From Morococcus cerebrosus (GTDB lineage: Bacteria > Pseudomonadota > Gammaproteobacteria > Burkholderiales > Neisseriaceae), in contig NZ_CP094242.1 in NCBI RefSeq assembly GCF_022749515.1, forward strand, positions 2,108,001 to 2,172,000: a stretch of 64,000 nt of DNA, read 5' to 3'. Both the position numbers and the translations under genes were made by a program. Position 1 is the stretch's first letter; each line of letters opens with the position of its first letter. Positions 8,603-59,990 of this stretch are shown piece after piece. The notes beneath the pieces are model-generated. The model saw only the letters and a program-made list of their open reading frames with translations, ran no database searches and had not been told where the DNA came from.

Positions 8603-8703
8603 CTATTCAAACAGGGAAACCGTTTGCCTGAAGCCCGTTTATGTTTCGGGCTGTTTCAGACGACGGCGGATTCGCATTTGAAGTGCAACTTTCCATAACA
8701 GAA

Positions 8704-8734
8704 AAAGGCCAGTATGCGGTAGCATACGGCCTTT
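8704..8734. terminator. Leader hairpin of IS30 copy 1
   Basis: AAAGGCC-A-GTATGC, loop GGTA, then GCATACGGCCTTT: a near-perfect stem between the left inverted repeat and the transposase start. It is flanked by A and T runs and can act as a terminator for transcription entering from outside. The same hairpin is in copy 2 and is broken in copy 3. Confidence 0.7.
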
Positions 8735-8752
8735 CCTGCAAGAAAGATTGCC

Positions 8753-9730
8753 ATGAGCTACACACAACTGACCCAAGACGAACGATACCATATCCAATAC
8801 CTGTCCCGCTACTGCACCGTCGCCGAAATCGCCAAACAACTTAACCGCCACAAAAGCACCATCAGCCGCGAAATCAAGCGGCACTGCATCCAAGGACAGC
8901 AATACAGCGCCGATAAAGCCCAACGGCAAAGCCGGCTGACCAAACAGCACCGGCGAAAACCCTATAAGCTCGATTCGCAGCTGGTTCAACACATCGACAC
9001 CCTTATCCGCCGCAAACTCAGTCCCGAACAAGTATGTGCCTACCTGCATAAACACCACGGTATCACACTCCATCACAGCACCGTTTACCGCTACCTCCGC
9101 CAAGACAAAAGCAACGGCGGCACTTTGTGGCAACATCTCAGAATATGCAGCAAACCCTACCGAAAACGCTACGGCAGCACATGGACCAGAGGCAAAGTGC
9201 CCGACCGCGTCGGCATAGAAAACCGACCTGCTATCGTCGACCGGAAAACTCGCATCGGCGATTGGGAGGCCGACACCATCGTCGGCAAAAATCAGAAAAG
9301 CGCGTTATTGACCTTGGTCGAACGCACTACCCGCTACACCATCATCTGCAAATTAAAGAACTTAAAAGCCGAAGACACTGCCCGGGCGGCCATTAGGGTA
9401 TTAAAGGCATATAAAGCCAGAGTCCACACCATTACCATGGATAACGGCAAAGAGTTCTACCAACACACCAAAATAGCCAAAGCATTGAAGGCGAAAACCT
9501 ATTTTTGCCGCCCTTACCATTCTTGGGAGAAAGGGCTGAATGAGAACACCAACGGACTCATCCGACAATATTTCCCCAAACAAACCGATTTCCGAAACAT
9601 CAGCGATCGGGAGATACGCAGGGTTCAAGATGAGTTGAACCACCGGCCAAGAAAAACACTTGGCTACGAAACGCCAAGTGTTTTATTCTTAAATCTGTTC
9701 CAACCACTGGTACCCTGGTGTTGCACTTGA
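8753..9730 (+). CDS. IS30-family transposase, copy 1
   Basis: 325 residues. The N-terminal helix-turn-helix (LTQDERYHIQYLSRYCTVAEIAKQLNRHKSTISREIKRH) is followed by the DDE domain: D in GDWEADTIVG, D in TMDNGKEF and E in NENTNGLIRQYF. The frame is intact. It differs from copies 2 and 3 at a few residues near the N-terminus. It reads four codons further because a TAG near the end has become TGG. Confidence 0.95.
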   Translation: MSYTQLTQDERYHIQYLSRYCTVAEIAKQLNRHKSTISREIKRHCIQGQQYSADKAQRQSRLTKQHRRKPYKLDSQLVQHIDTLIRRKLSPEQVCAYLHKHHGITLHHSTVYRYLRQDKSNGGTLWQHLRICSKPYRKRYGSTWTRGKVPDRVGIENRPAIVDRKTRIGDWEADTIVGKNQKSALLTLVERTTRYTIICKLKNLKAEDTARAAIRVLKAYKARVHTITMDNGKEFYQHTKIAKALKAKTYFCRPYHSWEKGLNENTNGLIRQYFPKQTDFRNISDREIRRVQDELNHRPRKTLGYETPSVLFLNLFQPLVPWCCT

Positions 9731-9768
9731 AATCCGAATCCAAGGACCTCCCCTTTTCTGTTCGCCGG

Positions 9769-32159: not shown

Positions 32160-32260
32160 GCAGGCATCAACGCCAAAACCCGTCCGAACGGTTGCATCAC
32201 ATTGCTTAAAGCAAAAAGGTCGGCGGATTCGCATTTGAAGTGCAACTTTCCATAACAGAA

Positions 32261-32291
32261 AAAGGCCAGTATGCGGTAGCATACGGCCTTT
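32261..32291. terminator. Leader hairpin of IS30 copy 2
   Basis: Identical to the copy 1 hairpin (AAAGGCC-A-GTATGC / GCATACGGCCTTT), lying 19 bases before the transposase start. Confidence 0.7.
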
Positions 32292-32309
32292 CCTGCAAGA
32301 AAGATTGCC

Positions 32310-33275
32310 ATGAGCTACACACAACTGACCCAAGACGAACGATACCATATCCAATACCTGTCCCGCCACTGCACCATCGCCGAAATCGCCAAACAGCTCA
32401 ACCGCCACAAAAGCACCATCAGCCGAGAAATCAAGCGGCACTGCATCCAAGGACAGCAATACAGCGCCGAAAAAGCACAGAAGCAAAGCCGGCTGACCAA
32501 ACAGCACCGGCGAAAACCCTATAAGCTCGATTCGCAGCTGGTTCAACACATCGACACCCTTATCCGCCGCAAACTCAGTCCCGAACAAGTATGTGCCTAC
32601 CTGCATAAACACCACGGGATCACACTCCATCACAGCACTATTTACCGCTACCTCCGCCAAGACAAAAGCAACGGCGGCACTTTGTGGCAACACCTCAGAA
32701 TATGCAGCAAACCCTACCGCAAACGCTACGGCAGCACATGGACCAGAGGCAAAGTGCCCGACCGCGTCGGCATAGAGAACCGACCTGCTATCGTCGACCG
32801 GAAAACCCGCATCGGCGATTGGGAGGCCGACACCATCGTCGGCAAAAATCAGAAAAGCGCGTTATTGACCTTGGTCGAACGCACTACCCGCTACACCATC
32901 ATCTGCAAATTAAAGAACTTAAAAGCCGAAGACACTGCCCGGGCGGCCATTAGGGTATTAAAGGCATATAAAGCCAGAGTCCACACCATCACCATGGATA
33001 ACGGCAAAGAGTTCTACCAACACACCAAAATAGCCAAAGCCTTGAAGGCGAAAACCTATTTTTGCCGCCCTTACCATTCTTGGGAGAAAGGGCTGAATGA
33101 GAACACCAATGGACTCATCCGGCAATATTTCCCCAAACAAACCGATTTCCGAAACATCAGCGATCGGGAGATACGCAGGGTTCAAGATGAGTTGAACCAC
33201 CGGCCGAGAAAAACACTTGGCTACGAAACGCCAAGTGTTTTATTCTTAAATCTGTTCCAACCACTGGTACCCTAG
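32310..33275 (+). CDS. IS30-family transposase, copy 2
   Basis: 321 residues, intact, ending at a TAG just before the right inverted repeat. HTH and DDE residues are as in copy 1. Compared with copy 1 it reads RHCTIAEIAK and AEKAQKQ instead of RYCTVAEIAK and ADKAQRQ, agreeing with copy 3, so copies 2 and 3 are the closer pair. Confidence 0.96.
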   Translation: MSYTQLTQDERYHIQYLSRHCTIAEIAKQLNRHKSTISREIKRHCIQGQQYSAEKAQKQSRLTKQHRRKPYKLDSQLVQHIDTLIRRKLSPEQVCAYLHKHHGITLHHSTIYRYLRQDKSNGGTLWQHLRICSKPYRKRYGSTWTRGKVPDRVGIENRPAIVDRKTRIGDWEADTIVGKNQKSALLTLVERTTRYTIICKLKNLKAEDTARAAIRVLKAYKARVHTITMDNGKEFYQHTKIAKALKAKTYFCRPYHSWEKGLNENTNGLIRQYFPKQTDFRNISDREIRRVQDELNHRPRKTLGYETPSVLFLNLFQPLVP

Positions 33276-33338
33276 TGTTGCACTTGAAATCCGAATCCAA
33301 GGTCGTCTGAAATCTTGTTTTCAGACGACCTTTATTCA

Positions 33339-57573: not shown

Positions 57574-57625
57574 AGCCCTTTGCATTTTTTTCAGACGACC
57601 TTGGATTCGGATTTCAAGTGCAACA

Positions 57626-58591
57626 CTAGGGTACCAGTGGTTGGAACAGATTTAAGAATAAAACACTTGGCGTTTCGTAGCCAAGTGTTTTTCTCGGCCG
57701 GTGGTTCAACTCATCTTGAACCCTGCGTATCTCCCGATCGCTGATGTTTCGGAAATCGGTTTGTTTGGGGAAATATTGCCGGATGAGTCCATTGGTGTTC
57801 TCATTCAGCCCTTTCTCCCAAGAATGGTAAGGGCGGCAAAAATAGGTTTTCGCCTTCAATGCTTTGGCTATTTTGGTGTGTTGGTAGAACTCTTTGCCGT
57901 TATCCATGGTGATGGTGTGGACTCTGGCTTTATATGCCTTTAATACCCTAATGGCCGCCCGGGCAGTGTCTTCGGCTTTTAAGTTCTTTAATTTGCAGAT
58001 GATGGTGTAGCGGGTAACGCGTTCGACCAAGGTCAATAACGCGCTTTTCTGATTTTTGCCGACGATGGTGTCGGCCTCCCAATCGCCGATGCGGGTTTTC
58101 TGGTCGACGATAGCAGGTCGGTTCTCTATGCCGACGCGGTTGGGCACTTTGCCTCTGGTCCATGTGCTGCCGTAGCGTTTGCGGTAGGGTTTGCTGCATA
58201 TTCTGAGATGTTGCCACAAAGTGCCGCCGTTGCTTTTGTCTTGGCGAAGGTAGCGGTAAACGGTGCTGTGATGGAGTGTGATCCCGTGGTGTTTATGCAG
58301 GTAGGCACATACTTGTTCGGGACTGAGTTTGCGGCGGATAAGGGTGTCGATGTGTTGAACCAGCTGCGAATCGAGCTTATAGGGTTTTCGCCGGTGCTGT
58401 TTGGTCAGCCGGCTTTGCTTCTGTGCTTTTTCGGCGCTGTATTGCTGCCCTTGGATGCAGTGCCGCTTGATTTCGCGGCTGATGGTGCTTTTGTGGCGGT
58501 TGAGCTGTTTGGCGATTTCGGCGATGGTGCAGTGGCGGGACAGGTATTGGATATGGTATCGTTCGTCTTGGGTCAGTTGTGTGTAGCTCAT
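57626..58591 (-). CDS. IS30-family transposase, copy 3
   Basis: 321 residues, intact, with HTH and DDE motifs as in the other copies. Differences include VPNRVGIENR (VPDRV in the others), VDQKTR and VERVTRYT. Its leader hairpin is broken by the IS3-family element 31 bases upstream of the start codon, so its expression may have changed. Confidence 0.95.
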   Translation of the reverse strand: MSYTQLTQDERYHIQYLSRHCTIAEIAKQLNRHKSTISREIKRHCIQGQQYSAEKAQKQSRLTKQHRRKPYKLDSQLVQHIDTLIRRKLSPEQVCAYLHKHHGITLHHSTVYRYLRQDKSNGGTLWQHLRICSKPYRKRYGSTWTRGKVPNRVGIENRPAIVDQKTRIGDWEADTIVGKNQKSALLTLVERVTRYTIICKLKNLKAEDTARAAIRVLKAYKARVHTITMDNGKEFYQHTKIAKALKAKTYFCRPYHSWEKGLNENTNGLIRQYFPKQTDFRNISDREIRRVQDELNHRPRKTLGYETPSVLFLNLFQPLVP

Positions 58592-58683
58592 GGCAATCTT
58601 TCTTGCAGGAAAGGCCGTATGCTACTGAACTGCACCCCAAAAGTTGGACATCCCCCCTCCAACTCACAAGGTGCAGTTTTTTT

Positions 58684-59034
58684 ATGAGCAAATATACATT
58701 ACACTTTAAATACCAAGCCGTACTCCACTACCTGCATATACGCAGCCAACAGCGTACCGCAGACCACTACGGCATCTCCCGAACCCACCTGCGACGATGG
58801 ATACGCGCCTATCAAGAAGGCGGCATCGGCGCACTCGAACATCCCCAATCCAAAACCATGCCCCAACACCGCAAAAACCCCTTCATCGCCGACAAACCCG
58901 ACCACGAAAAAACACAGGCGGAGCTTATCGAAGAGTTGTGCTATATGCGCGCAGAGGTCGCCTACCTAAAGGAGTTAAAAGCCCTCAGCCAAAAGCGGAC
59001 CGAAAAGGACAAAGCCAAACCGTCCAAACACTGA
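58684..59034 (+). CDS. IS3-family OrfA
   Basis: 116 residues from ATG 58684. The helix-turn-helix is HFKYQAVLHYLHIRSQQRTADHYGISRTHLRRWIRAYQEGGIGALE, and the C-terminal helix EELCYMRAEVAYLKELKAL is the leucine-zipper region of IS3 OrfA. It is longer upstream only as a shadow reading of the inverted repeat. Its 3' end overlaps orfB. Confidence 0.92.
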   Translation: MSKYTLHFKYQAVLHYLHIRSQQRTADHYGISRTHLRRWIRAYQEGGIGALEHPQSKTMPQHRKNPFIADKPDHEKTQAELIEELCYMRAEVAYLKELKALSQKRTEKDKAKPSKH

Positions 59035-59834
59035 GGGCGCAACACCCGCTCAAATACCTGCTGCACATCGCAAACCTGCCCAAAAGCAGCTTTTACTACC
59101 ATCACCAAGATCGACCCGATCCCGACGAGGCCGACAAAGCCCTCCTTGTCGAAACCTACAAACGGCATAAAGGACGCTACGGACAAAGGCGCATTGCCGC
59201 AGCATTGGATTGGAACCGCAAAAAAGCAGCGCGGTTGATGAAGCAGTTGGAACTGAAAGCCCTCATACGGGCAAAAAAAGCCTACCGCCATCCCGCCATG
59301 GGCGAGATATCGGAACACCTCCTCAAACGCCTATTCACAGCCGAAAAGCCCAACGAGAAATGGCTGACCGACGTGACCGAACTCAAAGGAAAGGACGGCA
59401 AACTGTACCTCTCGCCAATCTTGGACCTGTTCAACCGAGAAATCGTCGCCTACGCCATGAGCCGCAATGCTAACAGCGAAATGGTGAAGGAAATGCTCGA
59501 AAAAGCCGCACCCCGGCTGACCGGCGAAGGAACGATGCTTCATTCGGACCAAGGCGTGCTGTACCGTACGGCGGGATATAGGGAATTGCTTGCGGAGCAT
59601 TCCATGGTTCAAAGCATGTCGCGAAAGGCGAACTGCTGGGACAATGCGCCGATGGAAAGCTTCTTTGCGGTGTTGAAGACGGAGTGTTTCTATAACGCAG
59701 GAGAATTGACGGTGGACGAATTGATGAAGCAGATAGATGACTATATGGATTACTACAACCGGGAGCGTTGCAGTCTGAAATTGAAAAAGCTGAGTCCTGT
59801 CGCATACAGAACCCAGCTTGCACAGAGCGCCTGA
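59004..59834 (+). CDS. IS3-family OrfB (DDE transposase), reached by -1 frameshift
   Basis: 277 codons in the -1 frame relative to orfA; there is no good start codon, so it should be made as an OrfAB fusion. The AAAAG run at 59003-59007 is a likely slip site. The protein has PLKYLLHIANLPKSSFYYHH, then the rve/DDE catalytic core: D in LTDVTELKG, D in MLHSDQGVLY and E in NAPMESFFAVLKTE. It is intact to its end. Confidence 0.9.
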   Translation, partial: KGQSQTVQTLRAQHPLKYLLHIANLPKSSFYYHHQDRPDPDEADKALLVETYKRHKGRYGQRRIAAALDWNRKKAARLMKQLELKALIRAKKAYRHPAMGEISEHLLKRLFTAEKPNEKWLTDVTELKGKDGKLYLSPILDLFNREIVAYAMSRNANSEMVKEMLEKAAPRLTGEGTMLHSDQGVLYRTAGYRELLAEHSMVQSMSRKANCWDNAPMESFFAVLKTECFYNAGELTVDELMKQIDDYMDYYNRERCSLKLKKLSPVAYRTQLAQSA

Positions 59835-59990
59835 AAAGGCTTTTATGAGTGTCCAAGATTTGGGGGCCAGTTCATACCGCATACTGGCCTTTTTCTGTTA
59901 TGGAAAGTTGCACTTCAAATGCGAATCCGCCGACCTTGTTTGCAAAACGTCGTCTGAAACCGAAATACCGAAACCATAGAGAATCACAAC

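Follow-up and report, generated by a model that had tools for sequence, protein, structure and literature searches.

An IS30-family element in three copies

The window analysed here, a stretch of 64,000 bp (G000:C1:2108001-2172000) from a genome consisting of one contig of 2,574,276 bp (G000), contains three copies of an insertion sequence (IS) of the IS30 family, each inserted in a DNA uptake sequence (DUS). The features concerned are as follows.

8655..8664, minus strand: DUS 10-mer GTCGTCTGAA, uninterrupted, at the left junction of copy 1
8662..8664, no strand: GAC duplication of the target on the left side of copy 1
8665..9744, plus strand: IS30-family IS copy 1, 1080 bp, with paired ends and duplication, like the 70 copies described below
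8753..9730, plus strand: IS30-family transposase, 325 aa (NCBIfam NF033563, E-value 1.6e-93; Pfam HTH_38 and rve)
9745..9747, no strand: GAC duplication of the target on the right side of copy 1
32222..33301, plus strand: IS30-family IS copy 2, 1080 bp, with GTC at 32219-32221 and 33302-33304
33300..33311, plus strand: 12-mer AGGTCGTCTGAA, whole at the right junction of copy 2, its AG coming from the IS end
57590..57601, minus strand: 12-mer AGGTCGTCTGAA, whole at the right junction of copy 3
57600..59931, minus strand: IS30-family IS copy 3, split by an IS3-family element, with GTC flanks as read on the minus strand
58626..59874, plus strand: IS3-family element within copy 3, duplication TAC (NF033516; 11 full copies in G000)

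Copy 3 has its right end at 57600, and both of its outer ends were found together with the GTC duplication. It extends to 59931 because the IS3-family element (58626-59874) interrupts it; a first look at its left side had suggested a truncated copy, a reading that was dropped as the left end lies 1.25 kb further on, past the IS3-family element. The three copies are real, as had been predicted, each with a 3-bp duplication (GAC or GTC) and each rejoining to AGGTCGTCTGAAA, and the orientation of copy 1 relative to the DUS is indeed opposite to that of copies 2 and 3.

The IS30 transposase profile NF033563 scores 313 bits, the cut-off being 80. Terminal inverted repeats, a duplication of 2-3 bp and an intermediate with an IR-IR junction (circle or dimer) are traits of the IS30 family, and an imperfect inverted repeat (IR) of 25 bp with a 3-bp duplication was found in 70 copies of the present element in G000. 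It is probably an IS30-family IS close to IS1655 of N. meningitidis, which has an IS30-family transposase also. The 2007 account of IS1655 by Kiss et al. is said to give a size of 1080 bp, a 3-bp duplication and a 25-bp IR, with all of which this element agrees. IS1655 reportedly targets IRs and a 19-bp palindrome, neither of which is known to have been described as a DUS. The second kind of target of IS1655, beside its own IR with a gap of 2 bp, is a trait of that element and not part of its definition; in the present case no IS30 tip motif occurs in the 40-bp flanks of the paired copies, although natural copies cannot prove absence. The tips of the element, CTT inward at the right end and GCC outward at the left end, are the CTT and GCC tips of ISLxc3 and ISLxx5, whose ends were set by the limits of IS1655 according to a passage of PMC2516522.

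Target sites in the genome of the window

A search of G000 for the ends of the IS gave 79 matches to the right end and 75 to the left end, after which ends were paired and both flanks read. Both ends and a 3-bp duplication are present in 70 copies, 66 of which have 1080 bp between the ends. For 57 of the 70 the site is a DUS, cut every time at AG/GTC/GTCTGAA (slashes marking the cuts), with the result that all 57 insertions share one phase, a single position within a high-copy repeat. The target DUS is a perfect 12-mer in 49 cases, has one mismatch in seven and two mismatches in one, and is used in both orientations (32 vs 25, p 0.43). Outside DUS lie 13 of the paired copies, at sites with no clear consensus and showing only complementarity at offset 5, in 69%.

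The nine right ends outside this set of 70 belong to copies that were incomplete, interrupted or not fetched, or whose flanks mismatched. Five of them are at DUS when judged by eye, these being the end at 263 (judged from the right flank alone), those at 1094314 and 1913954 (both copies interrupted, with outer flanks that agree) and those at 1483208 and 2395862 (one flank altered). It is worth mentioning that at G000:C1:1910464-1913978 one IS30 copy is nested in another with a duplication of GGG, the outer copy sitting in a DUS.

The 13-mer AGGTCGTCTGAAA occurs 2337 times in the 2,574,276 bp of G000, and therefore about 0.06 of 70 random insertions would be expected at the exact phase; the 57 observed rule out chance. 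A looser criterion counts every window position inside a DUS 10-mer with up to one mismatch, or no more than 3 bp away from one; 2.8% of positions qualify, and the p-value for 57 of 70 is then about 1e-75. Two IS5-like elements of the same genome served as controls. The first (A, 1219 bp) has none of its 24 full copies in a DUS, 23 of them with a 5-bp duplication, and the second (B, 848 bp) has none of 19, the script finding no duplication for it. A search for an IS1595 transposase gave no match. Two relatives (G023 and G018) have the site of window copy 1 in its empty form, GGGCTGTTTCAGACGACCTCCCC, with the DUS intact, while a third (G026) has a DUS hairpin at the corresponding place in a different context. 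That the DUS might be part of the IS itself is ruled out by the empty sites, the duplications and the unrelated flanks.

As the duplicated triplet is formed by the first three bases of the 10-mer GTCGTCTGAA, one junction retains this 10-mer, exactly so in 54 of the 57 insertions, the other three having a base change within it. In the window it is uncut at one junction of each copy (8655-8664, 33302-33311 and 57590-57599). The longer 12-mer AGGTCGTCTGAA is whole in 31 of the 32 copies of G000 whose right IS end abuts the 10-mer, being rebuilt because the terminal CCAAG of the IS contributes AG; copies 2 and 3 of the window possess the full 12-mer for this reason, the IS ending in AAG. In the opposite orientation the junction reads CCGTCGTCTGAA. 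The original prediction that insertion leaves half-DUS ends is wrong in view of these junctions, and the reduced uptake of such DNA is therefore not implied by it. Judging from the sequences of the relatives, rebuilding in a host with another dialect would give the 12-mer AGGCCGTCTGAA or AGCCTGTCTGAA. In one species AG-DUS is 90% as effective as AT-DUS, according to an excerpt of PMC3630211.

Relatives and their targets in other genomes

Of 45 genomes of the genus searched with the protein, that of the window among them, 25 gave matches, and flanks were read from the genomes richest in copies and from single fragments. Relatives with 72-90% protein identity are present in several Neisseria genomes, unlike the restriction to N. 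meningitidis stated for IS1655 in parts of three papers (PMC3898611, PMC2924362, PMC9778887). A scan of genome contigs yielded five loci, in N. elongata, N. wadsworthii, Neisseria sp. 83E34, N. iguanae and one MAG.

G006 is a wadDUS host, with TGCCTGTCTGAA found 55 times in 106 kb of its loci. It has 19 full-length copies, 12 of them in phase (triplet CCT in nine and TTT in three) and seven outside DUS, with matching duplications on both sides in only five of the 12. In G019, an AT-DUS host whose element shows 90% protein identity and about 92% DNA identity, six of eight full-length copies are in phase (GTC, GTT and GCC twice each) and two are outside; four of the six have matching duplications on both sides, and only two have the triplet that belongs to the main dialect of the host, GCC. 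The predicted preference for DUS at a fixed phase is thereby borne out in G000, G006 and G019, in none of which do copies lie mostly outside DUS or at variable positions within it.

The AG-DUS host G042 has four of six copies or fragments in phase (GCC in three, ACC in one) and G017 has two of five. Fragments in phase are also found in G015 (both of two), G024 and G023 (one of two each), and G027, G035, G036, G038, G039 and G012 (one of one each), that of G012 having a CGG triplet and one mismatch and being perhaps there by chance. Fragments without a DUS-phase end are those of G025 (two) and of G010, G013, G018, G026, G037 and G044 (one each). Among these, the left flank closes with AGAGGCC in the G013 and G037 fragments and with AAAGGTC in the fragments of G018 and G026, resembling the 5′ half of a DUS. 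The constant part of the target is GTCTGAA, and the triplet (GTC, CCT, GCC) tends to track the dialect. It may preserve the dialect that the genome had when the IS inserted, which might help to trace dialect switches.

Two arrangements in these genomes deserve a remark. Right-end fragments of the IS30 element in G035 (L102) and G036 (L104) adjoin CCTGTCTGAA, which has a wadDUS-like triplet, and the few other DUS in the fetched loci of both genomes are of dialects other than the wadDUS-like one; the fragments may go back to an old transfer between dialect groups. In G019, a copy (L136) is flanked by two DUS parts in inverted arrangement, TTTCAGACGGC and GCCGTTTGAAA, and an event between sites, either a deletion or an inversion, may have led to this.

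To look beyond the genus, 82 genomes of the family were searched with a profile, which matched in three of 12 genera, that of the window included, and a DNA search with one such element added a further genus. There, NNNCCTGAA follows 11 of 12 distinct IS ends with at most one mismatch and nine of them exactly, this count being of ends that fit a fixed tip pattern, with ends of other shapes left out; one end is from genus g7 and the rest are from g8. Two copies have full duplications, CTG and CAG, and in another the triplets of the two sides differ (CAG and CTG). Both AGGCAGCCTGAA and AGGCTGCCTGAA occur in the three g8 loci in which 12-mers were counted. These distant relatives in two other genera sit at kingDUS/simDUS-like sites with a phase one base further 3′ than in Neisseria, and their ends do not restore the full DUS. 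Two further IS30 loci, L164 and L165, fall outside the count of 12 and contain no kingDUS or simDUS 12-mer. Among plasmid-borne IS30 relatives outside the Neisseriaceae (43-47% identity), GTCTGAA was found in the 20-bp flanks of none of six, drawn from 1339 matching records and with ends that are approximate, having been placed by an IR search.

Origin of the target preference and a second element at DUS

The element is an IS30-family IS, probably near IS1655, whose transposase very probably has an intrinsic preference for DUS as target. The single phase, the use of both orientations, the targets without an opposite DUS within 40 bp (23 of 57, counted on the downstream side only), the dialect-tending triplet and the negative results with the IS5-like elements point to recognition by the transposase, and we infer that it, rather than a host factor or selection alone, determines the preference, though a host protein marking DUS or hairpins could guide insertion. 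The cut is staggered by 3 bp and lies directly 5′ of the dialect-invariant GTCTGAA, so that the duplicated triplet falls in the dialect-specific part of the DUS and one transposase lineage could use the dialects of different hosts. The duplication restores the 10-mer at one junction, by which the core of the uptake signal usually survives, and some 2,300 such sites are on offer in the genome. A copy-out-paste-in route is described for IS30 in a section of PMC9333248.

It had also been predicted that DUS often lie in terminators and that insertions there are tolerated. An opposite DUS is present within 40 bp downstream of 34 of the 57 target DUS, compared with 32 of 85 window DUS (Fisher p 0.016), and both 240-bp flanks are open on a common strand at 4 of 51 testable target DUS as against 15 of 85 window DUS, figures that lean slightly towards this idea. 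They would also suit an element that inserts widely and survives mainly in DUS, these being in many cases intergenic terminators where little damage is done. Selection of this kind cannot, however, yield a single phase in 57 of 57 insertions, and the IS5-like elements of the same genome are absent from DUS; as the only cause it is very improbable, whereas selection for harmless sites may add to the preference of the transposase. The somewhat greater share of hairpins among target DUS would equally be expected of a transposase reading the palindrome of the DUS-pair terminator instead of the DUS, as seems likely for the IS3-family element, and in the other genera two copies with matching duplications have these placed centrally in the palindrome TTCAGGCWGCCTGAA. 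For the IS30 element such hairpin targeting is nevertheless very unlikely, given the targets above without a downstream partner and a cut that lies within the arm and not in the loop.

The element might also profit from transformation. An IS at zero distance from a DUS would enter recipients by DUS-dependent uptake, and its target choice would have evolved in this way, an account that we consider rather doubtful. The exact 10-mer at one junction (54 of 57) and the 12-mer rebuilt by the IS end AAG (in 31) are consistent with it, and the G035 and G036 fragments beside CCTGTCTGAA, with other DUS of other dialects, may reflect transfer. Yet DUS are already dense, one more may add little, and the IS ends in the other genera do not rebuild a full DUS.

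The element resembles the REP-inserting ISs ISPsy8, ISPa11, ISPpu9/10, ISRm22 and ISRm19 (Tobes and Pareja, 2006, PMC1525189), which likewise have a high-copy intergenic repeat as target and a constant position per copy; the part of that study in question also lists IS1655 with REP in few copies. Like the present element, ISAjo2-type ISs at dif/pdif, as described in part of PMC10132070, target a short functional host motif, but they have one orientation and lie 5 bp from the XerC site, while this element has both orientations and cuts inside the motif. No statement that any IS targets DUS was found in the literature covered; the paper of Kiss et al. (2007) on the target choice of IS1655 lies beyond this coverage and may hold part of the finding. 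Few uptake signals are as well known as DUS, whose number and conservation are an old question. An IS family which, like the competence receptor, appears to read this motif, but at the part that is independent of dialect, would constitute a second DUS-specific system, and insertion at DUS would be a safe-site strategy for mobile DNA and give a testable link between transposition and transformation.

The IS3-family element that splits copy 3 failed as a negative control, being itself found at DUS. Nine of its 11 full copies in G000 are in or against a DUS, mostly in the order GTT, IS, GTTTTCAGACGACC. Nine other Neisseria genomes supplied 46 distinct copies, of which 43 are enclosed by the arms of a DUS hairpin, as counted by eye from the flanks and with a mismatch in some arms, one has a one-sided DUS and two have none. 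The copies between arms are those of G043 (9 of 9), G010 (8 of 8), G042 (9 of 9), G038 (6 of 6), G018 (7 of 7), G023 (2 of 2) and G036 (2 of 2), the exceptions being the one-sided copy of G017 and both copies of G006. The survey covered part of the matches, with genomes such as G041, G020, G015, G026 and G027 left out. We infer that hairpin loops, and not the DUS alone, are what this element recognises, and the two cases together suggest that two unrelated transposases converge on DUS. It is a tentative proposal, less likely than not, that at least two unrelated IS lineages of the Neisseriaceae, IS30 and IS3, have come to specialise independently in DUS as landing sites, following dialect changes and sparing the core. 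Mobile elements would then live on the competence signal, every copy being joined to an uptake signal able to bring it into new cells, and IS load would belong to the evolution of DUS density and dialect.

With regard to the duplications of the IS3-family element, 17 of the 23 copies between DUS arms in G010, G042 and G038 lack a matching one, whereas this is so for 0 of 7 in G018 and 1 of 9 in G043. The window (58623-59877) and G006 also share a repeated nested insertion, in which the IS3-family element occupies one and the same position close to the left end of the IS30 element. It lies there in an apparent hairpin, which is seen on both sides in the window and in L341 and on one side in L302.
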